From positions 49,766,841-49,830,840 of the forward strand of contig NC_088206.1 of assembly GCF_037126465.1 (NCBI RefSeq): a DNA stretch of 64,000 nt, read 5' to 3'. Source of the DNA: Ornithodoros turicata (lineage: Eukaryota > Arthropoda > Arachnida > Ixodida > Argasidae). Position 1 is the first letter of the stretch. Every line of letters begins with the position of its first letter. Shown here piece after piece: positions 9,579 to 48,824 of the stretch. The notes under the pieces were generated by a model. The model did no database searches. It saw only the letters and a program-made list of their open reading frames with translations, and was not told the origin of the DNA. A program made the translations under genes and the position numbers.

Positions 9579-10456
9579 CAGGGTGTCCCAGAAAACGTGT
9601 CATTGAATTATAATAAAAAAAACTACGCCACCTAGAATCATGCGGTCAACGGCATTTGTTCTTATTAGGTTTTTGCCACCTTGTAAAGTTAATGTCATGT
9701 ACCCCAAGTTTAATTATGCAAATATTTGCGAACTGAACTCAGAAATTTGCCAAGGGAAGGTCACTTTTTTACCCCACCAATATGAAGAGCGTGCCGAATT
9801 CACTCAAATTCATGATAATTGACAGTGATATTCACGAGCTATCCCATCGGGAAAAAATCGCCGAATATCATCCTTTCGGAGCACCGGACCATAGCGCGCG
9901 ATGTCTTTCTGAGCGCAATCGCTCGCAGTCTGACGAAAGGAGGTTCCGAAGCCAGCCCACAGAGTGATAGTAGAAAAAGTAACAGTTTCTGAAATTGGGA
10001 GAGGGAAAGCATTATCCCAGCGAAAGTCGGACGTGATAAGCCATGCCTGCGTTATCTCTTTCTGCGATGCCGAGGTGGGCTGGGTTTCCAACCTCCTTTC
10101 GTCGGACTGACACAGATCGCGCTGAAAACTTCATCGTGCGCTATTCTGTGCGACCTCCGTAAAGCATGATGTTCGGCTACTTTTTCCGATGGGATAGCTC
10201 CCGAATATCCCTGTCAATTATCATTAATTTGAGTAAATTAGACACGCTCTTCACATTGGTGGGGTAAAAAAGTGATCTTTAGTAGGCAAATTTCCAACTT
10301 AAGCTCGCAAAAATTTACATAATTAAACTTACGTTACACGACATTCACGTGAGGAGGTGGCAAAAACCCAGAAAGAACAAATACCGTTGACCGCATGACT
10401 CTAGGTGGTGTAGTTTTTTAATTATAATTCAATGACACGTTTTCTGGGACACCCTG
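9579..10456. mobile_element. Foldback MITE flanked by TA
   Basis: The outer ends are cagggtgtcccagaaaacg and its inverse, each flanked by TA. The two arms (about 9579-9960 and 10080-10456) stay similar for about 380 bp each with scattered mismatches, so the whole element can fold into one long hairpin. No transposase is encoded. The ends and the TA flank suggest mobilisation by a transposase acting at TA sites, but the superfamily is not determined. Confidence 0.8.
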
Positions 10457-12629: not shown

Positions 12630-12920
12630 TAGGGTATGGTGGGGCAAGATGAGACACGGGGCAAGACGCGACATTTTTTTTGCTCGACGCCGCCTGTCTC
12701 AGATATGCATTGATCCATCTGCTTCAAACTTTACTCGTAGGTGGCTCTGCATGTCCGCTTTATTGCATGTGAAAATTGTCCGGACTGGTTTATGCGTTGA
12801 AGAGAAAAAAATCGGTGTCTTCTGCCTGGAATGTAAATACCCGCCAAAAGGGCGCGATTTTCTGTAGTCCTTTTTCTTGTCATCTGTGCAGCAGCGTTTT
12901 GCAGGCTTATCTTGTCCATG

Positions 12921-13852
12921 TACGAGGGGCGTTCAAGTCAAACCGGGACTTTCTGTCTACCGAGTGTACAAATGGCTCGCGCTGCTTCTTTTTCGTCATT
13001 TTCACACGCGACAGACCTCCGCGTTCACCACGTGGTGGTTCAAAGTTTGTGCAAAACAGAAGGCACGTGCTGGACAAGATGGCCAACAACGAGGTGAGCG
13101 CGCACATCAAACAGCGAATTGTCATGAAGTTTCTCATGAATGAAGGCGTAAAGTCATCTGAAATTCGCAGAAGACTTCAGGCTCAGTATGGCCACGATAC
13201 ACTTAGCCGCAGCAAAGCGTTTAAGTGGTGCAAACGGTTCCGTGACGGCCGTACGTCAGTGCAGGACGATCCCGGGCGGGGCGGCTCAGAGCCCAGTATC
13301 AGAGTTCCTGAGAACATCCAACTTGTGGAGCGCCTGATCCTCAAGGACCGACGGATAACATGTCTCGAACTGGCTCCTTTCTGTGGGAACGTTGAACACC
13401 TTCATGAACGTTCATGAACACCTCCAGTTTCGGACAGCCGGGCCTCATCACCAAAGGAGTCCTCCTTCTACAGGACAATGCACGCTCGCATACCGCGGAT
13501 CTCACGACACGCACCTTACAGGAACTTGGCTGGGAGTTGCTGCCACATCCCCCTTATAGTCCAAACCTCGCCCCCAGCGATTTTCATCTCTTCGAGCCAC
13601 TGAAGGCGTTCCTTGGGGGCCGCCACTTCAGCTGCGACGACGAGGTCAAGAATGCGGTCCGATCGTGGCTGCTACTCGCCAGTAAGGAGCTCTACGCTGC
13701 TGGCATCCAAGCCCTCGTGAAACGCTGGGGCATGTGCATTAGTGCAGCTGGAGATTACGTTGAAAAATAAAACTACCTAGTTTCTCGCCTGTAAGTTCAT
13801 TTTACGTTTGCGAAAAATGAAAAGTCCCGGTTTGACTTGAACACCCCTCGTA
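12921..13852 (+). mobile_element. Mariner-family transposon, internally deleted
   Basis: Inverted ends of about 30 bp (cgaggggcgttcaagtcaaa on the left, its inverse with one mismatch on the right) are flanked by TA at both sides (12921-12922 and 13851-13852). This is the target-site signature of Tc1/mariner elements. The length of about 930 bp is short of a full mariner (about 1.3 kb). Confidence 0.9.
13079..13770 (+). pseudogene. Mariner transposase, internally deleted and frameshifted
   Basis: From the ATG at 13079 the first frame encodes the N-terminal DNA-binding part: residues like KQRIVMKFLMNEG, then EIRRRLQAQYG, then FKWCKRFRDGRTSVQDDPG, the paired helix-turn-helix and linker of mariner transposases. 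The frame degenerates after RRITC and stops at 13417. A second frame (13414-13770) carries the end of the catalytic domain, LLQDNARSH (second Asp) and PPYSPNLAPSDFHLFEPLK (third Asp), 34 residues apart as in DD34D enzymes. The first catalytic Asp region is missing, so the protein cannot be active. Confidence 0.9.
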
Positions 13853-20024: not shown

Positions 20025-20030
20025 GGCGTG
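20025..20030. repeat. 6-bp target-site duplication, left copy (ggcgtg)
   Basis: ggcgtg directly precedes the left end agtatgtatt of the palindromic element. The same hexamer follows the right end at 31011-31016. Confidence 0.6.
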
Positions 20031-20580
20031 AGTATGTATTGGGTGGGCGTAAGCGGGGATGAGAAACTACGGCACACCCCCTGGGCCCTGCCCTGAGTCC
20101 TGCGCGTATTTTTTCCCGCGACCGGCGCGTGTGCGGAGGGTTGTCCGCACGCTTATAACATGCATAGACATGCAAAGAAGGGTCATACACAATAAGTACA
20201 AGTGAAAATATATTTATTAAAGTCATTAGTGCCAGGAATTATGTTATGACTCTGTGTGAAGGAGAAAAACACAGCCAACAAACCTGATGCAGAACAAACA
20301 CAATACACGTAACAACGATTATACTTATTACAGGCATGATGCAATAGCATTGAAGGGGTATCACACATCATACTTAATATTTTTTATTAGTGGTAATCAC
20401 ACGCTTTCAATTAAACAGAAGGGATAGCACACTTAATCAAAGAAGATATTTTTAATCAATATGATTACAATCAAAATTACAAGTTTTATTATAAAAAGTC
20501 TCACATTATTATGCGTGAGCACCATAGTGGAGTTTTAATTACAAAGTTCTGATAGATGTATGTAACTTCAAGAACAATAG

Positions 20581-21035
20581 CTGGGCCGACTTCTCTAGCG
20601 CTTTTTTCCAGCGCGCGGTGGGTGGCGCGCAGGTGAGGGACTGTCCGGGCTGCTTACCAGCAGGCCGACCGGCTCGGTGCGCCCTGGGCCGACTTCTTTG
20701 GCGATTTTTCCGCCTGGGCCGACTTCTCTAGCGATTTCTTATTAATTTTTTCAGCGCGCGGTGGGTGGCGCGCAGGTGAGTGGCTGTCCGTGTGCTTACT
20801 AGCGGGCCGAAGAGCTGAGCGTACACTTATGGTTGTACACCCTGGGGTGACTGCTTTGGCTATTTTTCAGCCTGGGCCGACTTCGTTCGCATTCTTTTTC
20901 AGGTGGCGCGTGAGTGGTTTACATGTAAGTAGGGACATGCACACTGTCATCCCAGCCAGGCGATGATACCGTCACACCTGGGCCGACTTCATTCGCAATT
21001 TTCGCCCTGGGCCGACATCTTTCATAATTTTTTCT
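20581..21035. repeat. GC-rich iterons, left arm
   Basis: About seven degenerate copies of CCTGGGCCGACTTC followed by a GC(A/G)ATTTTT-like tail are spaced irregularly (about 20582, 20687, 20717, 20847, 20871, 20979 and 21007). Two copies are separated by a cgcgcggtgggtggcgcgca module. The matching set in the right arm is at about 30005-30460. Confidence 0.75.
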
Positions 21036-21179
21036 GGCTACAACAGCTGTGCGGTGGATGGTTTACATGCTAGTAAAGCCAAATAGTGGCAGGAATTATG
21101 TTGTAGCTCTGTGTGAAGGCGAAAACCCCAGCTAAAAAACATGGAACGGAAGAAACACAATACACATAATAAAGAATAT

Positions 21180-21990
21180 GGGAAGCTAAGTTGAGAGAAA
21201 AATTCATCCGAAAAAGAATGCAGAAGGAACACAATACACATAATAAAGAATATGGGAAGCTAAGTTGAATATTCCAACACGACACAATTATGCAATTTAT
21301 TATGACGTGAGTAGCACACATGCAAGGAAATAATGAGAAACACGATCAACAGCTAATAGAGAACCAAAACAATGCACCATTCAACACATAAACAAGAGGT
21401 ACACAAAGGATACATAATTGAAAAACAATCTATCAAAACGAGAAACATGCACACACTGAACACTGAATAGCAGAGAAACACTCTAAACGGCGCATCTGCC
21501 AACGTGTAAAGAACAGACACATGCAGGAAAATAATATCGAAACAAGCTATCAAATAAGAAACATTACAAATTTAATAAATTGAAATGGAAATAATTTATC
21601 TTTGGGAAAGCTAAGTTGAGAGAAAAATTCATCCAAAAAACGAAAACAGAAGGAACGCAATACAGAATATGGAAAGCTAAGTTGAATATTCCAACACGAC
21701 ACAATTATGCAATTTATTATGACGTGAATAGCACACATGCAAGGAAATAATGAGAAACACTATCAACAGCTAATAGAGAGCCAAAACAATGCATAATCCA
21801 AACAAGAGGTACACACAGGAGAAATAATTGAAAAACAATCTAAAACGAGAAACATGCACGCACTTAACACTGAATAGCAGAGAAATACTCTGAATGGCGC
21901 ATCTGCCAACGTGTAAACAACACAGGAAAATAATATTGAAACAATCAATCAAACATTACAAATTTAATAAATTGAAATGGAAGTAATCTA
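21180..21990. repeat. Imperfect tandem duplication, period about 427 bp
   Basis: gggaagctaagttgagag at about 21180 recurs as gggaaagctaagttgagag at about 21606. The following sequence repeats to about 21990 with small gaps. The right arm has the same duplication, so it predates the palindrome. Confidence 0.7.
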
Positions 21991-22267
21991 CCTTTTGAAC
22001 TATTATAAAATCATCCTTGCGACCTAATCTAGTCGAACAATATACAATTTTCGTCCTACTCAGGCACTATAAACATTACCTTGACAGAGGTATCCATACA
22101 GCCAAGCTTTACACAGTACAGCCAGTCTTTGCTACTTGAGCCCGGTGGGGGTCACTCTCTCTCTTCCTCCTTCTATACAGCCCAAAAGCAAAGAAACCGC
22201 ACATCCTTTGTCAATCTATGGGGTGGGGAAACCCTCTCTCTTTTTCACATTCTTTCCTCCAAAGGGA

Positions 22268-23223
22268 AATATTCTTAGGACCGGTGTACAGAGGTGAAAT
22301 TTTTTATTGATCAACTATCGCAAATAGGCATTGGAATTATTCAATTCTCAAGAACACAATAAGAATTCTATCAACAAACAACAGCACGCAAAAAAAATCT
22401 AGGAATAGACTTTTATGTCAGTGCAAACTGGTTTTAGAGAAACATTATCTAAGCAAACGAGAAATATTATCGGTGCAAACAATACTCAATCAAAACGAGA
22501 AACGTTGCACTTAATGTATTTCAGATCTGACACAACTATTATGCATATATTATTGTCAACTTACAAAATATCAATCGAGTGAATATCTGAAGCAAAGAGA
22601 GAAAGTCAAATTTATTCAATACTCATTCAAAAATGAGAATCAAATTTAATTACATCATTTTATGATAACTTTGCAATAGTAATTTCTACACGCAGAAGCC
22701 GCAAACAAACAACTCATCTGAAATGCAAATTAATGGAAAAGTTTGCTACAGCAAAAATCAATGCACACAACTTAAAAACACTTTCCCAACTAGTAGAATA
22801 TTTTTTAAATATCAATCGAGCGATCATCTGAAGCAAACTCAAAGGAGTAATTACTTTAGGCAAACACTTTCTGAACAAGCAGGGCGATACATCACAGGAA
22901 CACGTCTTTTTCATTCAGAACTCACTAGCAAAAAAAGAAAAAAAGAAAAGAAGAGTGAGAGAGGGAAGCTGAGCTCCCATACACCTTCGTCAAGGTTACG
23001 CCCGCAGGGAGTAGGGGGATCCTACAATTGTCGTGGTGAAAGTCATAAACTGACTCCAACAACTCAAGCTGGGAATTGAGGGCACGCATTTTTCTTACTC
23101 GTCACATCATTTTGTAAATGGGCTTTCATAATTCTCGCGACAGGTGGATATTAATAATATTATAAACACGATAACATAATAAGTTTTCAATAAATAAAAT
23201 GAGCACCGATATGATTTAATTAA
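22268..23223. other. AT-rich segment of left arm, no supported gene
   Basis: A frame at 22723-23079 is open in both arms, but its second half is a Lys-rich run with different frames in the two arms. I see no sign of coding constraint. A potential promoter for the downstream frame would lie here. Confidence 0.35.
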
Positions 23224-23941
23224 GTGTCGAGGCACATTACAAAACAGAACAGACATTTGCTATACATTGAAGAGATGGACGGATTTTGTACTCGTTACCA
23301 TAGGTCATGGGAGGACTTGATAAAAAGCTGCTTCGAAAAAGAAGAGTTGCAAAATGATTCTATTATCACAGCATTTCAATACGTCCTAGACATGGTCGTA
23401 TTTGGAGATTTGGTGCAAATTATGGAATTCAAGGTGCAAGAACTTTTATGCCGAATCTACAATAGTTATAAAAATATTTGCACGTCAACATCTGAAGGAC
23501 CACTGGGATTGATGGTGGAGTTTTTGAGGATTGCTAACGAAGAATTGAAATACACTAGACCAAATGTAATTGTAATCATCGCAATGGGCGTTGCATTAAT
23601 CAAGAAAGCAATCAAATCAAATTATCATATACAAGGAGTCTATATCGCCCGATTCATTACGGATTTGTTGAAATTACACCTAATGGTTGAAATGGAAAGT
23701 ACGTAAAAAAACTTATCACGGGATATATTCCACTAGAGCATCTACACATTTATTTGCTTCTATCAGTTCTTTCAATGATGTCGAATGAACAGAAGTTCAA
23801 TATTGTCGTGCAAGGTCTGATGTATCATCACTTATTGAGACTCAACAAACATCAATTGCGATGGACCATCGGACGATTTTCATCTAATACTCTCTTGTAC
23901 GCCATTCAAGAATCTTCGTACAAAGAAAGGAAACATCAATA
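23224..23941 (+). CDS. Bcl-2-like protein of the palindromic element, left copy, damaged
   Basis: The first segment is open 23224-23706; the first ATG is at 23275. Two stretches suggest the Bcl-2 fold. Residues 57-62 (MVVFGD, counted from 23224) fit a BH3 core, hydrophobic-x3-Gly-Asp. Residues 114-150 (NVIVIIAMGVALIKKA, then IARFITDLLK) follow the BH1 and next-helix pattern of cellular Bcl-2 proteins with matching spacing, though the usual NWGR is absent. A 68-nt intron is possible (GTACGT at 23699, acceptor TTCTATCAG at 23766) and would join this frame in phase to a second segment from 23767. A 2-nt deletion near 23851 breaks that segment here, leaving a foreign tail to 23941. Bcl-2 homologues block apoptosis; function here is inferred only. 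Confidence 0.4.
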
Positions 23942-24049
23942 AGAGACTGTGCAAGTTCGTCGCGACAAAGTGCAAGTTGTTGAAGCAATACAAACACGAC
24001 GACAACATATCGCCCGCGTTAATCAACGCTGGATTCAAGCGCCCAATAA

Positions 24050-24198
24050 TCAGAATTAACTATTTGATGGCTTCGGAATTTATCAATCAAGACAACAAAC
24101 AAAAACTTTAGTGTTTAGAATGGAATTGTAATTTATGAAAATAAACAAGTGTATAATTGAAATAATAATTGTAATATTCGTCATCAATGTAATGTATT
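24050..24198 (+). repeat. 149-bp direct repeat, copy 1 (3' end of the second segment)
   Basis: It begins tcagaattaactatttgatg and recurs with four or so substitutions at 24383-24531. Confidence 0.9.
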
Positions 24199-24265
24199 CT
24201 ACACATCGCAACGAAAACAGTTTATGATTACATTGAGCATTGCTAAGGAGACGTTTATTCCACAC

Positions 24266-24385
24266 TACGAGGGTGGTTCCATAAGTTTCCGGCCCGACCA
24301 ACTTTTAATAGTCATAGAGACGAAACAAGTGTATCACTTTTCGACATAGTCACCCTTAACTTCGATGCACTTTTGACACCTTTCA
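24266..24385 (-). mobile_element. Terminal fragment of a mariner
   Basis: About 120 bp match the last part of the mariner at 25501-26792 in inverse, starting from the same TA insertion site as in the right arm. The fragment then breaks off abruptly at TCA (24383-24385), where it joins a second copy of the upstream gene's 3' end. Confidence 0.9.
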
Positions 24386-24531
24386 GAATTAACTATTTGA
24401 TGGCTTCGGAATTTATCAATCAAGACAACAAACAAAAACTTTAGTGTTTAGAATAGAATTGTAAGTTATGGAAATAAACAAGTGTATAATTGGAATAATA
24501 ATTGTAATATTCGTCATCAATGTAATGTATT
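24383..24531 (+). repeat. 149-bp direct repeat, copy 2
   Basis: It repeats 24050-24198. After it the sequence is unique (tactatccgcg…) and differs from what follows copy 1. Confidence 0.9.
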
Positions 24532-24544
24532 TACTATCCGCGAC

Positions 24545-24769
24545 ATGGAGAATTCACATTACGTTATAGAGTATATAGAAAATACCAATACATTCAATTA
24601 AATTCTCTATCATCGTGAAAGAGTTCTTAAAACTTTCGCGTATCAAAGTGAGCCAGCTAAAGCTGTGAAATTACACTTTCTACAACTCAGTTCGTACATT
24701 GCGGCACCAGTTCAAATTTTAATTAAACACTTACTGATGTGTGATAATCTCCACTGCTCCGGAATGTGA
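24545..24769 (+). pseudogene. Central ORF of the palindromic element, interrupted by TAA
   Basis: From ATG 24545, 18 codons run to TAA (24599-24601). The same frame then continues for 55 codons to TGA (24767-24769). Composition is protein-like in an otherwise AT-rich, stop-dense neighbourhood (for example KTFAYQSEPAKAVKLHFL). Not recognised. Because it is outside the duplicated arms it may be the start of the next gene of the parental element. Confidence 0.35.
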
Positions 24770-25500
24770 TCTGATAAATTTTAGCAATTAATGTACAAAC
24801 AAATATCTTGTATGCAATGTGTGACTATATAGACAGCTTTTTAATCTATATCTTAAGAAAATTGTAAGAAAGAGAGAGAGAGTATACCCTTTCCATTTGT
24901 AGTGCCTCATATGCCATGACATAATGAATAGACTCATAGTTTTTCAGTATGGCTAATGAAAACCTCGGGTACATTCTGTGAATTGAATCTACGTTTATGT
25001 GTGCTGCTTTGGTTAAGTTTGCAAAAGGAATATTTAAGTTATTATTATTACATATCTTCCATTGTGTTTATGCATAGTGCTCATCTTCATTGTATAGTGG
25101 TTAAACATTTCTGATGACAGTTGTGTGATTCGATTCTCCCAAAAAGTTACTGGAACTGTGTGCCATATGTTATGATGATTAGAATTGTAGACTCCGCCTG
25201 CGCATCATGCTTGTCCATCACTTGCATCGCGTCATTTGATAATAGATTCCTTTCAATAGATATTGTCAACTGTCCAACCGTTTGAGAAATGTATACACTG
25301 TGCAATTTAATTCATAAAATATGCCTTCGCAAAATATTAGTGATCCTCTTTTGTAAACAAAGATTGATGTAACGTGCCTCTAAATTTCAATTAGCGATTC
25401 TTCTACAATTCTATCCTTCGGATGTCGGTGTTGTATAGAGTGTGGTCGTGTAAAATCTATTTGATTGCCAGCGCTGATTCCACACGAGGATCCTTGTACA
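24770..25500. other. AT-rich unique centre, no supported gene
   Basis: A short GA microsatellite occurs at about 24870-24883. No gene was recognised. The segment ends at the TA of the mariner. Confidence 0.4.
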
Positions 25501-26792
25501 TACGAGGGTTGTTCCATAAGTTTCCGGTCCGAGGTAGAAAATGCGCGCGAATTTGAAAATGTGATTAAGGACGCGTGGCACCATCTGTTGGAGGGCCGGA
25601 GCACCACGCTCAACCCTCTCCATGCTTTTGTCGGTTGGAGAGTGGAATTTCAAACAGCCAGGGTGCACTCTTCAGTTAAAATGGAAAAAAATCGAGTACC
25701 GTGCTGTGATAAAATTCTTGACAAAAGAGGGACTTTCGCCTAAAGAAACTAAAGCGCGTCTGGACAACGTGTACAGGGAAGCCTCTCCGTCGTACACAAC
25801 GGTAAAAGACTGGGCTAAGCAGTTTCGACTGGGGCGAGAGTCCATTGAAGATGATCCACGCGATGGTCGTCCAGTGGAAGTGGTGACACAAGAAAATTTG
25901 TCTCTTGTCGAGGAGGAAGTGCTGAGCGACAGGCGTCTGAAGATGAAGGAAATCTCAGAAAGGCTGGGTCTTTCCAAAGCAACCGTTTTTCGTATCATCG
26001 GCGAGGGCCATCACATGAAAATGGCGAGATGGGTACCACGACTTCTCTCGTCAGTCCAAAAGTAACGGTGCGTCGTCTGTGCCAAAGAGCTTTTGGAGCT
26101 CTGTCAAGAGAACGATGAAGAAAAATTTAAGTCAATTGTCACAGGGGATGAGACTATGGTGCTCTACTATGATCCTCTTTCAAAAAAGGAGTCGATGGAA
26201 TGGCGCAAACCAGAAGAAGCACACCCAAGAAAAACCAAAGTCACACAATCCACAAAGAAAATCATGGCAACAATATTTTGGGATTGTCACGGGATCCTCC
26301 TCATCGACTTCAAAGAGAGGAACACCACAGTGAATGTGACTTATTATGCTTCACTCCTGCACCGACTGCGAGACGCCACCAAGGAAAAGAGGCGCGGCAG
26401 GTTGAGTCGAGGTGTCCGGTTGCTCCAGGACAATGTCCCTGTCCACACGACTTCTGTTGCCAAGGCTGCACTGAAGGAGTGCGGCTTCGAAGAAATCCAC
26501 CACCCACCCTACAGTCCAGACTTGGCACCGAGTGACTACTTCCTGTTCTCAAACTTGAAGAGGGATCTCAGAGGACGGAGATTTCAAAACGATAGTGAGG
26601 TGCACGAGGCAGTTTCCAGCATTTTGCGGACAAAACTTCGGACTATTTTTTCAAGGGTATAAGAATGCTGGTTGAAAGGTGTCAAAAGTGCATCAAAATT
26701 AAGGGTGACTATGTCGAAAAGTGATACACTTGTTTTGTCTCTATGACTATTCAAAGTTGGTCAGGCCGGAAACTTATGGAACCACCCTCGTA
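25501..26792 (+). mobile_element. Full-length mariner transposon
   Basis: TA at 25501-25502 and 26791-26792 flank inverted ends (cgaggg(t)tgttccataag on the left and its inverse with a few mismatches on the right). The length of 1.29 kb is that of a complete mariner. It lies at the inner border of the right arm. Confidence 0.95.
25681..26662 (+). pseudogene. Mariner transposase with one frameshift
   Basis: The N-terminal frame (translated MEKNR… out of frame at 25681; main frame 25622-26065) shows the mariner helix-turn-helix: YRAVIKFLTKEGLSPKE, YTTVKDWAKQFRLGRES and MKEISERLGLSKATVFRI. The frame is lost near 26050, and the catalytic part follows in another frame, 26093-26662. It carries all three acidic residues: Asp in VTGDET (26147-26149), Asp in LLQDNVPVH, and Asp in LAPSDYFLF with 34 residues between the last two (DD34D). 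The C-terminus stops slightly early. A single shift separates it from a full-length reading frame, so the loss of activity is recent. Confidence 0.9.
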
Positions 26793-26946
26793 GTGTGGAA
26801 TAAACGTCTCCTTAGCAATCTTCAATGTAATCATAAACTGTTTTCGTTGCGATGTGTAGAATACATTACATTGATGACAAATATTACAATTATTATTTCA
26901 ATTATACACTTGTTTATTTCCATAAATTACAATTCTATTCTAAACA

Positions 26947-27836
26947 CTAAAGTTTTTGTTTGTTGTCTTGATTGATAAATTCCGAAGCCATCAAATAGTT
27001 AATTCTGATTATTGGGCGCTTGAATCCAGCGTTGATTAACGTGAGCGATATGTTGTCGCCGTGTTTGTATTGCTTCAACAACTTGCACTTTGTCGTGACG
27101 AACTTGCACGGTCTCTTATTGATGTTTCCTTTCTTTGTACGAAGATTCTTGAATGGCGTACAAGAGAGTATTAGATGAAAATCGTTCGATGGTCCATCGC
27201 TATTGATATGTTTGTTGTGTCGCAATAAGTGATGATACATCAGACCTTGCACGACAATATTGAACTTCTGTTCATTCGACATCATTGCAAGAACTGATAG
27301 AAGCAAATAAATGTGTAGATGCTCTAGTGGAATATATCCCGTGATAAGTTTTTTTACGTACTTTCCATTTCAACCATTAGGTGTAATTTCAACAAATCCG
27401 TAATGAATCGGGCGATATAGACTCCTTGTATATGATAATTTGATTTGATTGCTTTCTTGATTAATGCAACGCCCATTGCGATGATTACAATTACATTTGG
27501 TCTAGTGTATTTCAATTCTTCGTTAGCAATCCTCAAAAACTCCACCATCAATCTCAGTGGTCCTTCAGATGTTGACGTGCAAATATTTTTATAACTATTG
27601 TAGATTCGGCATACAAGATCTTGCACCTTGAATTCCATAATTTGCACCAAATCTCCAAATACGACCATATCAAGGACGTATTGAAATGCTGTGATAATAG
27701 AATCATTTCGCAACTCTTCTTTTTCGAAGCAGCTTTTTATCACGCCCTTCCATGACCTATGGTAACGAGTACAAAATCCGTCCACCTCTTCAACGTATAA
27801 CAAATGTCTGTTCTGTTTTGTAATGTGCCTCGACAC
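26947..27836 (-). CDS. Bcl-2-like protein of the palindromic element, right copy
   Basis: The first segment is 27836 to 27354 and the second 27306 to 26947. The first carries the same BH3-like and BH1-like stretches as the left copy with about nine substitutions in 160 residues. The position of the left copy's ATG is GTG here, so its start is unclear. The possible 68-nt intron has the same donor and acceptor, and the second segment is unbroken, ending in NQDNKQKL and a stop. The damage thus differs from that of the left copy, where the start survives but the second segment is frameshifted. Confidence 0.4.
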
Positions 27837-30004
27837 TTAATTAAATCATATCGGTGCTCATTTTATTTATTGAAAACTTATTATGTTATCGTGTTTAGAA
27901 TATTATTAATATCCACTTGTCGCGAGAATTATGAAAGCCCATTTACAAAATGATGTGGCGAGTAAGAAAAATGCGTGCCCTCAATTCCCAGCTTGAGTTG
28001 TTGGAGTCAGTTTATGACTTTCACCACGACAATTGTAGGATCCCCCTACTCCCTGCGGGCGTAACCTTGATGAAGGTGTATGGGAGCTCCCTCCTCCCTC
28101 TCTCACTCTTCTTTTCTTTCTTTTTTTTTTTGCTAGTGGGTTCTGAATGAAAAAGACGTGTTCCTGTGATGTATCGCCCTGCTTGTTCAGAAAGTGTTTG
28201 CCTAAAGTAATTACTCCTTTGAGTTTGCTTCAGATGATCGCTCGATTGATATTTAAAAAATATTCTACTAGTTGGGAAAGTATTTTTAAGTTGTGTGCGT
28301 TGATTTTTGCTGTAGCAAACTTTTCCATTAATTTGCATTTCAGATGAGTTGTTTGTTTTTGGCTTCTGCGTGTAGAAATTACTATTGCAAAGTTATCATA
28401 AAATGATGTAATTAAATTTGATTCTCATTTTTGAATGAGTATTGAATAAATTTGACTTTCTCTCTTTGCTTCAGATATTCACTCGATTGATATTTTGTAA
28501 GTTGACAATAATATATGCATAATAGTTGTGTCAGATCTGAAATACATTAAGCGCAACGTTTCTCGTTTTGATTGAGTATTGTTTGCACCGATAATATTTC
28601 TCGTTTGCTTAGATAATGTTTCTCTAAAACCAGTTTGCACTGACATAAAAGTCTATTCTTAGATTTTTTTTGCGTGCTGTTGTTTGTTGATAGAATTCTT
28701 ATTGTGTTCTTGAGAATCGAATAATTCCAATACCTATTTGCGATAGTTGATCAATAAAAAATTTCGCCTCTGTACACCGGTCCTAAGAATATTTCCCTTT
28801 GGAGGAAAGAATGTGAAAAAGAGAGAGGGTTTCCCCACCCCATAGATTGACAAAGGATGTGCGGTTTCTTTGCTTTTGGGCTGTATAGAGGGAGGGAGAG
28901 AGAGTGACCCCCACCGGGCTCAAGTAGCAAAGATTGGCTGTATGGATAGCTCTGTCATGGTAATGTTTATAGTGCCTGAGTAGGACGAAAATTGTATATT
29001 GTTCGACTAGATTAGGTTGCAAGGATGATTTCATAATAGTTCAAAAGATAGATTACTTCCATTTCAATTTATTAAATTTGTAATGTTTGATTGTTTGTTT
29101 CAATATTATTTTCCTGTGTTGTTTACACGTTGGCAGATGCGCCGTTCAGAGTGTTTCTCTGCTATTCAGTGTTAAGTGCGTGCATGTTCCTCTTTTAGAT
29201 TGTTTTTCAATTATTTATCCTTTGTGTACCTCTTGTTTGGATTGTGCATTGTTTTGGCTGTCTATTAGCTGCTGATCGTGTTTCTCATTATTTTCTTGCA
29301 TGTGTGCTATTCACGTCATAATAAATTGCATAATTGTGTCATTTTGGAATATTCAACTTAGCTTTCCATATTCTGTATTGCGTTCCTTCTGTTTTGTTTT
29401 TTTTTATGAATTTTTTCTCTCAACTTAGCTTTCCCAAAGATAGATTATTTCCATTTCAATTTATTAAATTTGTAATGTTTCTTGTTTGATAGCTTGTTTC
29501 GATATTATTTTCCTGCATGGGTCTGTTCTTTACACATTGGCAGATGCGCCGTTTAGAGTGTTTCTCTGCTATTCAGTGTTAAGTGTGTGCATGTTTCTCG
29601 TTTTGATAGATTGTTTTTCAATTATTTATCCTTTGTGTACCTCTTGTTTACGTGTTGAATGGTGCATTGTTTTGGTTCTCTATTAGCTGTTGATCGTGTT
29701 TCTCATTATTTCCTTGCATGTGTGCTACTCACGTCATAATAAATTGCATAATTGTGTCGTGTTGGAATATTCAACTTAGCTTCCCATATTCTTTATTATG
29801 TGTATTGTGTTCCTTCTGCATTCTTTTTTTGGATGAATTTTTCTCTCAACTTAGCTTCCCATATTCTTTATTATGTGTATTGTGTTTCTTCTGTTTCATG
29901 TTTTTTGGCTGGGTTTTTCGCCTTCACACACAGCTACAAGATAATTCCTGCCACTATTTGGCTTTACTAGCATGTAAACCATCCACCACACAGCTGTTGT
30001 AGCT

Positions 30005-30460
30005 GGAAAAAATTATGAAAGAAGTCGGCCCAGGGCGAAAATCGCGAATGAAGTCGGCCCAGGTGTGATGGTATCATCGCCTGGCTGGGATGACAGTGTG
30101 CATGTTCCTACTTACATGTAAACCACTCACGCGCCACCTGAAAAAGAATGCGAGCGAAGTCGGCCCAGGCTGAAAAATAGCCAAAGAAGTCAGCCCAGGG
30201 TGTACAACCATAGGTGTACGCTCAGCTCTTCAGCCCGCTAGTAACCACATGGACAGCCCCTCACCTGCGCGCCACCCACCGCGCGCTGAAAAAAACAAAA
30301 AATCGCTAGAGAAGTCGGCCCAGGCGGAAAAATCGCCAGAGAAGTCGGCCCAGGGCGCATCGAGCCCGTCGGCCTGCTGGTAAGCACCCGGACAGCCCCT
30401 CACCTGCGCGCCGCCCACCGCGCGCTGGAAAAAAAATCGCTAGAGAAGTCAGCCCAGCCA
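30005..30460. repeat. GC-rich iterons, right arm
   Basis: This is the inverse counterpart of 20581-21035: repeated gaagtcggcccagg motifs with gcgcgccacccaccgcgcg modules between them. Confidence 0.75.
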
Positions 30461-31010
30461 TTGTTCTTGAAGTTACATACATCTATCAGAACTTTGTAAT
30501 TAAAACTCCACTATAGTGCTCACGTATAATAATGTAGGACTTTTTATAATAAAACTTGTAATTTTGATTGTAATCATATTGATCAAAAATATCTTCTTTG
30601 ATTAAATGTGCTATCCCTTCTGTTTAATCGAAAACGCGTGATTACCACTAATAAAAAATATTGCGTATGATGTGTGATACTGCTTCAATGCTATTGCATC
30701 ATGCCTGTAATAAGTATAATCGTTGTTACGTGTATTGTGTTTCTTCTGCATCAGGTTTTTTGGCTGTGTTTTTCTCCTTCACACAGAGTCATAACATAAT
30801 TCCTGACACTAATGACTTTAATAAATATATTTTCACTTGTACTTTTTGTGTATGACCCTTCTTTGCATGTCTATGCATCTTATAAGCGCGCGGACAACCC
30901 TCCGCACACGCGCCGATCGCGGGAAAAAATACGCGCAGGACTCAGGGCAGGGCCCAGGGGGGGTGCCGTAGTTTCTCATCCCCGCTTACGCCCACCCTAT
31001 ACATACTACT

Positions 31011-31016
31011 GGCGTG
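31011..31016. repeat. 6-bp target-site duplication, right copy (ggcgtg)
   Basis: ggcgtg follows the right end …catactact directly and equals 20025-20030. Confidence 0.6.
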
Positions 31017-44822: not shown

Positions 44823-47800
44823 CTAGTTGACAGGTGGGGGTGGAGCCTGAAGCGGTAAGGAAGGGAGGCTGAGTGTCGGATTCGGTGAAGGCGGGTTTGA
44901 GCCGATCGATGGACACCGTTTCCCGACGACCACCGTGGTCGATGATAAAGTATTGGGATGGCGTTCGATCACGTGGTGTGGACCAGAGTAGGGGGGCTGT
45001 AGAGACCGTCGGAGGGCGTCAGTCCGGAGGAAAACTTGAGATGCTGATCGGAGGTGGGGTGAAACGAAGGTCCGATGGGTACTAGGAACTCGAGGGGCAG
45101 TTGGTCGAACTCGGGAGAAGTGGTCGCGAAGGCGTCCGACATAGTCCGTTGCTGTCAACTGTAGGTTGTCAAGCGGCTGGGGGTCGAAGAACTGGCCTGG
45201 AAGGCGAAGGGAGGCCCCATAGACGAGGTCCGCTGGTGTATATTTCAGATCATCTTTCCAAGCACTGCGAATGCCCAGCAGTATCAGGGGAAGATATTCG
45301 CTCCATTTTGCGCTGTCGTCGTAGGACATTATGGCGGCTTTGAGGTGACGATGAAAACGTTCAACAATGCCGTTAGCGCACGGGTGATAGGCTGTGGTGC
45401 GACATCGGGTGGTACCAAGAAGCCGAGTGAGGGCGGAAAAGAGTCGTGATTCAAACTGACTTCCCCTGTCAGTGATTAACTGAGATGGGACTCCGAAACG
45501 GGAGATCCAAGTTGAGATGAATGCTTGCGCGACGGTCTCGGCTGTAGAATCGTGCATCGGGGCCGCCTCCGGCCATCGGGTGAAACGGTCGATGCACGTC
45601 AGGAGGTATCTGTAGTTATGAGACGGAGGCAGGGGACCGACGATGTCTATGTGGACGTGGGCGAACCTTGCGTCAGGCAAGGAGAAGGTCGAGAGGGGAG
45701 ACGCGGTGTGCCTGTGAACCTTTGCCCGTTGACATGCAAGGCAGGACCGCGTCCAGGTGCGAATGTCGGTGTTCATCGATGGCCAAACGTAATGGGTGGC
45801 TACCAAACGTTGCGTGGCTTTGACTCCAGGATGAGAAAGGCCATGAAGCGATGAGAAGATGGGCCGCCTGAACGGTTTTGGTACAAATGGTCGGGGCGAA
45901 CCGGTTGCCGTGTCACAAAAGATAGGCTGCTGGATACCCGTAAAGGGAATAGGCTGTAGGCGGAGGGACGAATTGCCGGATCGGATATGCCTAAGTTCTG
46001 GGTCCAGCTCTTGCTGCCTGGCAAGATCGGCGAGATTGATGGGGGTGTCATGGAGGGAAGAGATCCTACTGAGAGCATCGGCGGGGACGTTGTCGGTTCC
46101 TTTAACGTGCTGGAATTCAGCGTTGAACTCGGCTAGGAAGGCGAGGTGTCTGATTTCGCGTGGGGAATAGCGAGAGCTTCCAGATTGATACGCGTAGACC
46201 AGCGGCTTATGGTCTGTGAAGATGACGAATGACTTGTCTTCGAGGTAGTAGCGGAAATGTTTAACCGCTGTGAAAGCGGCGAGAAGTTCGCGACCAAAGG
46301 TGCTATATTTCTCTTCCGCAGCAGATAGTTTCTTCGAGAAAAAGGCCAGCGGCTTCCAGTGGCCGCCAATACGCTGCTGTAGCACCGCCCCCGTGGCTTG
46401 GTTGGATGCGTCCACCATGAGGGATGTAGGGGCGCCACTTACTGGGTGACTTAAGGAGGCTGCTGAAGCGAGGGCTTCCTTTGCTTGGCGGAAGGACTGC
46501 AGGGCTTGTGGAGGCCACGCGAGTCCAGCGGAGTTGGGCGTATGTGCCTTTAGGAGTTCTTCTAGCGGTCGCAGAATAGCGGCACAGTGGGGGACGAAAC
46601 GACGATAGAAGTTAACCATGCCAAGGAAGCGGCGGAGCTGGCGGATGGTTGTGGGCAAGGGAAAATCCTGGACTTGCTTGACCTTGCTTTCCAGGGGAGA
46701 AATTCCGTGCGCGTTGACCTTATGGCCCAGAAACTCCAGCTCAGGCACGCCGAACTCGCATTTATCGACGTTGATGAGCAATCCATGGTCAGATAGACGT
46801 CGGAATAAGATGCGGAGGTGCTCCGTATGTTGGTCGGGAGAAGCACTAGCAACCAGCAAATCGTCGAGGTAGGCAAATACAAAAGGGAGGCCACGCGTGA
46901 TGTTGTCGATGAACCGTTGAAAGGACTGTGCCGCATTTCGTAGGCCGAAGGGCATACGGAGGAATTCAAAAAGCCCGAAGGGTGTTACAATCGCAGTTTT
47001 CGCGATGTCTTCCTCGGCCATGGGTATTTGATGGTATGCCTTGGTTAAATCGATTTTTGAAAACGTTGTTGCTCCTGTAAGGCCGGCGGTGAAGTCGGAG
47101 ATGTTGGGAAGAGGGTAACGGTCGGGAAGTGTTGCCAAGTTTAAGGCGCGATAGTCTCCGCATGGCCTCCAGTCGCCAGTTTTTTTGGGGACCATGTGAA
47201 GAGGTGACGACCAAGTGCTGGAAGACGGTCTGACGATACCAAGCGCGAGCATATGGTCGAATTCCTGTCGTGCAATGGCCAGCTTCTCGGGGCTCAGACG
47301 ACGTGCTTTGGCGAAGACCGGCTGACCTCGCGTGACGATGCGGTGCACGACAGGGTGCTTGACGGGTTTCGTCCAGTCGCAGGGGGCAGTCAAGGATGGA
47401 AACTCGCGCAGGAGCTCCGCAGAGGCGGTGTCCTGGGGGCGGGGTTTAGTAAGACCTGCCGGTGGTGTGCACGTTGAAACGCCGTTCACAGAGAGGCCTG
47501 TAAGGTTGTCAAGCAACACACGCCTAGCGACATCGACCATAAGGTTATTGTGCGCTAGGAAATCGCTTCCTAAGATGCAGTGCGTAGTGTCTGCCACCAA
47601 AAAGACCCAATGGAAGACACGACGTAGCCCAAAATCGAGAGGCAAGGATCGGCGGTAGTACACTGCAATGCGGGAACCATTTACTGCGGTCAAATACATG
47701 ATAGGGGAACGTCGTCGATCTTGGGTAGATGCGGGGAGAACACTAACTTCAGCGCCAGTATCGACAAGGAAATTCTGGCTTCCGGACCGATTTTTGAGGT

Positions 47801-47894
47801 AGAAGAGGCGACCGTGCCGCGTAGTCTGGGGTTTCCTGGTCGCCGTTAGGAGTCCCCGGTGAAGTTTCCCTGCCAGCGGCATGGTGATTCGCAA
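44823..47894 (-). CDS. pol: Pol polyprotein of the Ty3 element (protease, RT, RNase H, integrase)
   Basis: The frame has 1023 codons without interruption. Counting from 47894: aspartic protease DTGA at 45-48; reverse transcriptase with DYRALN near 247-252 and catalytic YLDD at 342-345; RNase H with Asp 495 (MVDASN), Glu 536 (FGREL) and Asp 561 (TDHKP); integrase zinc finger His 684, His 688, Cys 718, Cys 721; integrase catalytic Asp 750 (HIDIVGP), Asp 809 (TDRGSQF) and Glu 845 (GIVERF), a DD35E spacing. The order RT-RNase H-integrase is that of Ty3/gypsy. It overlaps gag by 49 nt in the -1 frame and has no suitable own ATG at its start, so expression by -1 frameshifting is likely. All catalytic residues are present. 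Confidence 0.95.
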
Positions 47895-48700
47895 CGTCGT
47901 GCCCTGCGGCCGAAACGACGATGGTACCAGCAGACTGGACGACGGTTGGATGACGATGGCGGGGTTGGAGAGCGTACTATTCTGCGGGACTGTCCAGCCC
48001 GACCAGGAGAGTGGCTGTCGCGGCGCGTGGGCCTGTTGAAGGCGTCGGCGAGCCGCTTTATTTCATCACGTAAAGCGATGAGTTCCGAGTTTTCCGAGGA
48101 CGCCGATGAAGAGGTGCAGGTACCGCAGGCTTCGGGTGAGGATTGCGGATGGGTGCTGTTCACCGCAGAGAGAGTGTGCGCAGAAGCTTGGCCGGATGCA
48201 ATTTCCGTTACCTTGTCGGCGCGTGCTGCGAGGGACGGAAGGTCGCTGTCGTCCGAAGCGGATAAGACCAGCTGTACGGACGGAGGCAGTCGAGGAAGAA
48301 AAAGCTCGCGAAGGAGCTTGGGGTCGAAGGTGGAGCTTCCGATCAAATGCTGCATTTGCCGCAAAACTTGGGAGGGCTTGCGGTCGCCAAGAGGCTCGTT
48401 CAGCACTAATTCTTGTAAGCGCTGGCGGTCAGAGGGAGAGGTTCGCTCGACGACGGCAATCTTCAAGGCGTCGTACGAAGCGTCAGCGGGAGGACAGTTG
48501 ACGATGTCTGCCACCTCGATGAGAATGTCTTCGGGGAGGGCGGACAAGGCATGGTGAAATTTCGTTACTTGGGATGTGATGTGCGCCAAGGTGAACTGTG
48601 ACTCTGCTTGCCGAAACCATATGTCCGGGCGTGAACGGGTAAAAGGCGGCAGTCGTACGGCGAAGGAGGATACCAGGGGCTGCGTACCGTTGCCATCCAT
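47846..48700 (-). CDS. gag: Gag protein of the Ty3 element
   Basis: ATG at 48700 (MDGNGTQP) was chosen because an upstream GTG lies inside the primer-binding site. About 284 residues. The middle matches the layout of Ty3 capsids ([17 protein letters not shown], then [12 protein letters not shown], then [11 protein letters not shown]). A Ser/Arg-rich linker follows, and a single knuckle of Cys-x2-His-x9-Cys-x3-Cys ([18 protein letters not shown]) close to the C-terminus in place of the usual CCHC. It packages element RNA and forms the particle. Its stop lies within the start of pol. Confidence 0.9.
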
Positions 48701-48719
48701 GATCACGTCCGGGTCACCA
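48701..48719 (-). other. Primer-binding site, complementary to tRNA-Trp
   Basis: tggtgacccggacgtgatc on the minus strand follows the 5' LTR after one base. It matches the 3' end of animal tRNA-Trp (from memory) at all but one or two positions. The gag ATG abuts it directly. Confidence 0.7.
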
Positions 48720-48720
48720 G

Positions 48721-48824
48721 TGTGGAAGACGACTGATCAGACCAGGGCGATAGGCAGAACTGACTGTTTATTCCAGAGCGCGAGGGGAGACCGCGCTTGG
48801 TGTCGCGCGGATATGGCCGCTACA
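48721..48824 (-). repeat. 5' LTR of the Ty3 element (104 bp)
   Basis: It has the same sequence as 44654-44757. At 104 bp it is unusually short for this class. Confidence 0.95.

Follow-up and report, generated by a model that had tools for sequence, protein, structure and literature searches.

Palindromic elements in the genome of Ornithodoros turicata, probable satellites of Maverick (Polinton) elements

What kind of element is a palindrome of 11 kb that is bordered by a direct hexamer repeat, and by which process do its two arms stay alike? The question is raised by positions 20031-31010 of a stretch of 64,000 nucleotides (nt) from the 1.07 Gb genome of the argasid tick Ornithodoros turicata. 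The whole stretch, G000:C6:49766841-49830840, is called the window in the following, and other loci are designated by contig and position. A preliminary description of the window had regarded the palindrome as a defective form of an element of the Maverick (Polinton/adintovirus) kind, integrated as a unit. The analysis presented here indicates that it belongs to a family that is probably made up of helper-dependent palindromic Maverick satellites, founded by snap-back and perhaps re-formed at replication. The palindrome is composed of the following features:

20025..20030: left copy of the target site duplication (TSD), GGCGTG
20031..24383 (+): left arm, terminus AGTATG, with a 115-nt mariner end at about 24267-24383
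20581..21030, mirror at about 30003-30460 (+): subterminal repeats, including the CTGGGCCGACTTC motif
21228..21995 (+): pair of subterminal units, about 417 nt from one another, in the left arm, with a mirror in the right arm
26673..31010 (-): right arm, terminus AGTAGTATG on the minus strand
31011..31016: right copy of the TSD, GGCGTG

A multi-copy family of palindromes

The two inverted arms that had been described were recovered as reverse complements of about 4.35 kb each (20031-24383 and 26673-31010). Their alignment of 4326 columns contains 135 mismatches (3.1%) and 38 gap columns; the mismatches amount to 81/1994 (4.1%) in the outer 2 kb and to 54/2332 (2.3%) in the inner part, and 38 of the 135 touch a CpG. 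GGCGTG was likewise read on both sides, at 20025-20030 and 31011-31016. The termini, AGTATG on the left and AGTAGTATG (as reverse complement) on the right, differ by one AGT, such that the right end carries AGTAGT and the left end a single AGT. A comparison of the window with Rfam gave nothing at gathering scores.

The protein encoded by open reading frame (ORF) 1, which is present in both arms, was compared with the genome. Scoring of the best 150 of 4617 candidates gave 150 matches, three of which are due to the window element and its duplicate (see below). By our own count 141 of the 150 are free of stops, in a best-scoring set in which intact copies are over-represented. The terminal 500 bp gave at least 91 matching pieces (best 40 of 3972 candidates scored). 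Among the best 150 ORF1 matches, 45 pairs of neighbours lie within 12 kb of each other; 42 of these are facing, two are in tandem and one points outward, while 60 matches are unpaired and may have partners that rank below those listed. The spacing of the facing pairs is 3.81-3.90 kb in 26/42 cases and ranges from 1.7 to 4.1 kb in the rest. Palindromes are the normal state of this multi-copy family, which has conserved ORFs of its own, and the window element is no single accident; a one-off event was rejected on the basis of copy number and of the inverted order of these pairs.

Both ends were read in eight independent elements, including that of the window. The copy at C6:50.36 Mb was not counted, because its flanks are those of the window element and it is a segmental duplicate. 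An exact 6-bp TSD was found in five of the eight: GGCGTG in the window, GCCAAC at C2:1.22 Mb, GAGGCT at C4:56.9 Mb, CACCTT at C6:28.05 Mb and GGCGTA at C1:213.83 Mb. At C5:35.17 Mb the two copies differ by one mismatch (GTTCGG/GTTCCG), and two elements have none. AGTAGT is present at both ends of 5/8 elements; divergent termini were read at C2:1.22 Mb (AGTAGT/AGTAGC) and at C2:27.06 Mb (TGTAGT/AGGAGT). For vertebrate Mavericks, a published survey gives 5'-(AGT)2//(ACT)2-3' as the commonest end motif, TSDs of 6 bp and terminal inverted repeats (TIRs) of 46-1447 bp (PMC8097293). The family studied here thus has the end motif and the TSD length of Mavericks/Polintons. One exact end pattern of the family had no match in viral contigs.

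The element at C1:213.83 Mb, about 10.9 kb long, illustrates the young form of the family, which is close to a full palindrome. The outer 2210 nt of its arms are 99.86% identical, its two ORF1 copies are identical, and its inner part, compared with the reverse complement of itself, shows a gapped match of 97.5%. The mirror crosses the loop and reaches to about 100 nt from the centre, with one loop difference of about 45 nt. In other copies the halves are trimmed differently near the centre, which may reflect deletions that shorten an unstable palindrome.

A tree was calculated from arm segments of 1270 nt for the nine elements that have both segments; it does not include C4:56.9, C6:28.05, C5:31.9 and C2:27.06 Mb or the segmental duplicate. 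The two arms of an element are each other's closest relatives in 9/9 cases; six of these forks have bootstrap values of 99-100, and three arm pairs are identical. Arms of one element are 95.1-100% alike, and arms of different elements are alike down to 76%, that is, they differ by up to 24%.

The fate of arms after insertion can be followed at the second locus, about 0.58 Mb away, where the element recurs together with 0.9 kb or more of the left flank and 65 nt of the right flank and has retained the arm-specific substitutions. Of 2593 gap-free positions compared between the window element and this duplicate, 32 group by arm, three by locus and one is crossed; the remaining variable positions comprise 85 singletons and one with more than two states. 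At the window locus, the inserted arms have drifted separately and chromosomal conversion is rare. If this holds in general, arm identity is restored before insertion, because inserted arms drift independently. A folded or hairpin replication intermediate would be a plausible means. The duplicate itself (G000:C6:50363703-50382203) has a left arm that is broken by two insertions, retroelement-like by eye, in one of which a frame is open over 1348 codons or more.

Between the arms of the window element, the following features were identified:

24383..24531 (+): repeated copy of the arm segment 24050-24198; a short common TCA marks its junction with the mariner end
24532..25500: loop of about 970 nt, single-copy in the window and present in both halves of the C1:213.83 Mb element
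25501..26795 (+): full mariner (transposase in two ORFs), inserted at the arm/loop boundary

The full mariner adjoins the right arm, and its last 115 nt recur at the corresponding point of the left arm; the same mariner end terminates both arms. Toward the centre, the left arm continues from these 115 nt into the arm-segment copy 24383-24531 and then into the loop. The spacer is not a simple one; its centre has been rearranged. Such centres, including that of the window copy, may again be the outcome of deletions. The template-switch-like joints found here would fit a chromosomal inverted duplication, by break and fold-back, of one integrated end after insertion. This explanation and that of an assembly artefact, which the preliminary description had itself named as a refuting case, are exceedingly improbable. 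The mirror ends at the AGT termini, outside of which a direct 6-bp repeat is found; furthermore, flanks and hexamers are different in independent copies, and the segmental duplicate has kept the arm-specific substitutions. Both were rejected, being largely refuted by the independent copies.

Termini in common with Mavericks of the same genome

A search of the genome for PolB (PF03175), in which the best 91 of 1253 candidates were scored, gave matches that were all over the cut-off, with frames of up to 1282 amino acids; 82 of the 91 listed have no inner stops by our own count. One Maverick family has the ends AGTAGTCTAGAAATG, for which 45 end matches were found (control 0). These form 18 inverted pairs 12-23 kb apart (own count), and 8/18 enclose a listed PolB match. 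The copy on C7 also encodes an A32-like ATPase; in addition, an endonuclease VII domain is found in a frame that runs on, in register, into the PolB match. At C7:2669311-2686101 and other loci, many Mavericks have long open PolB frames, several of them with identical match scores, which suggests recent Maverick activity. Mavericks, as candidate helpers, and palindromes thus coexist in this genome. In the hard ticks, many adintovirus integrases have been noted in Ixodes (PMC10675110).

The preliminary description had proposed to look for a PolB-bearing relative with common terminal sequence, and such an element exists. A pattern of the window terminus gave 27 matches in the genome with at most three mismatches; the control gave four, so some of the matches occur by chance. 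The pattern led to a second kind of Maverick at C10:1960604-1973972, which is 13.4 kb long, has a PolB match inside and TIRs of 372 nt at 98.7%, and is flanked by AATGAA on both sides as TSD. Between its terminal repeat and the window arms, 108 nt match at about 90%; for the end of the palindrome at C5:35.17 Mb, the match is 96% over 102 nt. In the window, the matching stretches are:

20123..20230 (+): 90% identity with the C10 Maverick terminal repeat
20256-20327: second stretch matching this terminal repeat, 79%

The terminal repeat of the window arms and of other palindromes thus has its homologue in a PolB-coding Maverick.

In some palindromes the match is not confined to the terminal repeat. 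The arms at C2:25.79 Mb and C1:119.60 Mb follow the right, PolB-side end of the C10 Maverick past its TIR and then break off; at C1:119.60 Mb 163 nt match at 95%, and the 31 nt that follow at 94%. The C10 PolB frame is represented by its last 21 codons in 3/3 further arms that were read (C2:25.79, C1:119.60 and C1:157.45 Mb). Judged by coordinates, this frame and the PolB match are in register; the last 12 codons of the frame were read by eye. The mirror arm matches at 99.86% in the C2:25.79 Mb element and at 100% in the C1:119.60 Mb element. At these two loci one genome end, with the termini of the presumed helper, is therefore found twice in inverted orientation, as in a snap-back genome; the window element has the terminal repeat only. 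The left end of the C10 Maverick diverges from its right end at the edge of the TIR (25 nt read past it). C10 PolB-side DNA also gave a weak 30-nt match at C2:27.06 Mb.

Could the palindromes be ordinary Mavericks with long TIRs that lost their interior, the ends being homogenised by repeat recombination or panhandle repair and no snap-back being involved? Homogenised ends would yield the same tree of sister arms, and the range of 46-1447 bp stated for vertebrate TIRs (PMC8097293) lends the idea some support. We nevertheless regard it as unlikely: at C1:213.83 Mb the mirror extends to about 100 nt from the centre of 10.9 kb and leaves almost no interior, the TIR of the linked C10 Maverick comprises merely 372 nt, and palindromic relatives hold the PolB-side end beyond it.

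Eight ORFs of the window were compared with Pfam. None of them was recognised as a Maverick core gene (PolB, integrase, ATPase or capsid), and only the inserted mariner passed the cut-off. The element is thus a non-autonomous derivative and not an autonomous Maverick. The preliminary description had seen no hallmark gene and left the class open; the class can be assigned as Maverick/Polinton by end motif, 6-bp TSD and terminal repeat. Its proposal of a defective element integrated as a unit is supported in part. The Maverick/Polinton derivation and the 6-bp duplication stand, and it is the PolB end that is duplicated in three other copies; the single event does not stand, and the snap-back step would be the probable explanation of the duplicated end.

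The reading frames of the arms

Two conserved frames are located in the inner part of the arms:

23224..23706 (+): ORF1, left copy, 160 codons, GTG at the start position
27354..27836 (-): ORF1, right copy
26947..27285 (-): ORF2, right copy, 112 codons; frame-shifted in the left arm

In 30 family sequences the start codon of ORF1 is ATG in 16 and, as in the window, GTG in 14; three loci were excluded from this count, and some elements enter with both arms. The dN/dS ratio of ORF1 is 0.22-0.32 in seven hand-picked pairs of lineages (Fisher p 9e-7 to 3.5e-3), and its median is 0.30 in those pairs, 405 out of 561, whose dS exceeds 0.08. These ratios indicate that ORF1 is under purifying selection. 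Between the left and right arm of the window, ORF1 differs by three synonymous and nine non-synonymous changes, as expected after insertion. For ORF2 (about 112 codons, eight sequences), dN/dS is 0.15-0.80 in pairs with dS above 0.08, and this frame, too, looks selected. ORF2 may represent a further exon of the ORF1 gene: in the window the two frames could be linked by a GT..AG intron of about 70 nt, but the joined frame would end prematurely in some lineages.

ORF1 has no relative above the cut-off in Pfam or NCBIfam, and ORF2 has none in Pfam. Neither ORF1 (also searched as an alignment) nor ORF2 had a match in the protein collection. ORF1 gave only chance-level matches among PDB sequences (best E 0.46) and no confirmed relative in viral contigs. 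AlphaFold models calculated from single sequences have a mean pLDDT of 49.8 (ORF1) and 49.4 (ORF2). A Bcl-2-like fold was considered for ORF1; nothing supports it. The two frames might conceivably represent a gene that aids the satellite or modulates its helper.

The high copy number, together with two frames that look selected and are devoid of relatives in these collections, would also be compatible with an autonomous new palindromic element or virus, in which the ORF1/ORF2 product drives replication or integration and the Maverick-like ends were acquired. This is quite improbable, given that both frames total only about 270 codons and that a Maverick ancestry is indicated by the PolB codons adjoining the terminal repeat.

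Proposed origin and comparison with known systems

It is plausible to assume that the family originated as Maverick satellites in four steps. First, the PolB-side end of a Maverick genome would have served as template for its own inverted copy, so that a linear molecule arose that has this end at either terminus; this step is deduced from sequence relics. Second, because AGT repeats and a terminal repeat of helper type are present at the ends of the palindrome, it would be replicated by the protein-primed PolB of the helper, whose integrase would insert it with a 6-bp duplication. The AGT repeats are only compatible with protein-primed replication. Third, one half would template the other before insertion, for example via a folded single strand; the outcome is seen in the sister arms, and new insertions would therefore begin with nearly identical arms. 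Fourth, the arms would drift apart independently after insertion, as was observed for the one duplicated locus. Overall, snap-back foundation and dependence on a helper appear probable to us.

Several observations weigh against this proposal. No TSD was found at C1:140.95 Mb and C2:27.06 Mb. The preliminary description had named related copies without a common hexamer as evidence against its reading, and two of the eight elements are of this kind and one has a mismatch, although five have an exact hexamer. At C1:157.45 Mb the supposed mirror stretch has no match, and the PolB codons were seen in one arm. The link is to a single Maverick, that on C10, of which about 1.3 of 13.4 kb were read, the left end to 25 nt past the TIR. 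No PolB stump was detected by tblastn in the window arms or in the other older arms tested; the C6:28.05 Mb copy has one short, doubtful match (E 0.06) at another place. ORF1 and PolB were not seen in one element, the nearest being 79.9 kb apart among the matches listed. The GTG start of 14/30 ORF1 sequences is accompanied by a median dN/dS of 0.36, compared to 0.28 for ATG, and the selection tests rest on related, non-independent pairs. Finally, the mariner end in both window arms may stem from repair at the centre templated by the other arm; its value as a proof of arm copying was downgraded for this reason.

A more far-reaching version, which we consider possible but on the whole doubtful, is an obligately palindromic satellite lineage in which each cycle rebuilds one half and the ORF1/ORF2 product favours the satellite or restrains the helper. 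The gene pair would stay identical if each cycle rebuilt one half from the other, and the family would constitute an endogenous control system for Mavericks in an animal that resembles defective interfering genomes. As far as is known, Maverick replication has been inferred mainly from sequence. A family with near-identical halves and drifting insertions would be a chromosomal record of how Maverick genomes are copied, and the model of protein-primed fold-back becomes testable by counting changes common to both arms. It would also exemplify defective viral genomes that turned into a stable genomic parasite with a selected gene. No report of palindromic Maverick derivatives was found in titles and abstract openings of the open-licence literature.

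The remainder of the window contains further repeats. A tandem array of units of about 1.3 kb occupies 42000-64000, where pentamer arrays (AGGGT, AGGTC, AGGGC, AGCTT) alternate with other sequence that codes in one unit for an RNase H fragment (Pfam RNase_H). Inside this array, at 44823-48736 (-), lies a Gypsy-type retroelement whose open frame of 1079 codons encodes reverse transcriptase, RNase H and integrase. At 12773-13770 (+), a Mos1-type mariner transposase is represented by pieces in two frames, the second piece under the Pfam cut-off, and another inverted repeat at 9617-10419 has arms of 239 nt at 85% and a spacer of 325 nt.

Among known systems, Foldback, Galileo and Tetris elements resemble the window element in their long inverted arms with internal repeats, as stated for Galileo (PMC3573991). 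An origin as a DNA transposon of the Foldback/Galileo type, with a P-like or Mutator-like transposase, is highly improbable: the terminal repeat and the PolB codons are common with a Maverick, and in the eight window ORFs scanned a transposase domain came from the inserted mariner alone. The ends differ as well. Foldback and Galileo have TSDs of 7-9 bp, whereas those found here comprise 6 bp next to AGT repeats. We know of no link of Foldback, Galileo or Tetris to Mavericks.

Virophages and polinton-like viruses, which act as satellites of larger DNA viruses, are likewise small integrated DNA elements with a possible dependence on a larger DNA virus. In contrast, the elements studied here are palindromic, their proposed helper is a Maverick and no capsid gene was recognised. 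With Mavericks/Polintons (adintoviruses) themselves the window element has in common the (AGT)2-type ends, the 6-bp TSD, terminal inverted repeats and the terminal repeat of a PolB-bearing member. It differs from them in being wholly palindromic, with its own ORFs in two copies and no core gene in eight ORFs.

Snap-back defective genomes of linear DNA viruses likewise have one end duplicated in inverted orientation and retain the ends of the helper type. Cases are known from adenovirus. For adeno-associated virus, snapback genomes are described in PMC8235507. In contrast to the by-product of one infection, the palindromes of O. turicata are a germline family with many copies and lineages and with conserved ORFs.

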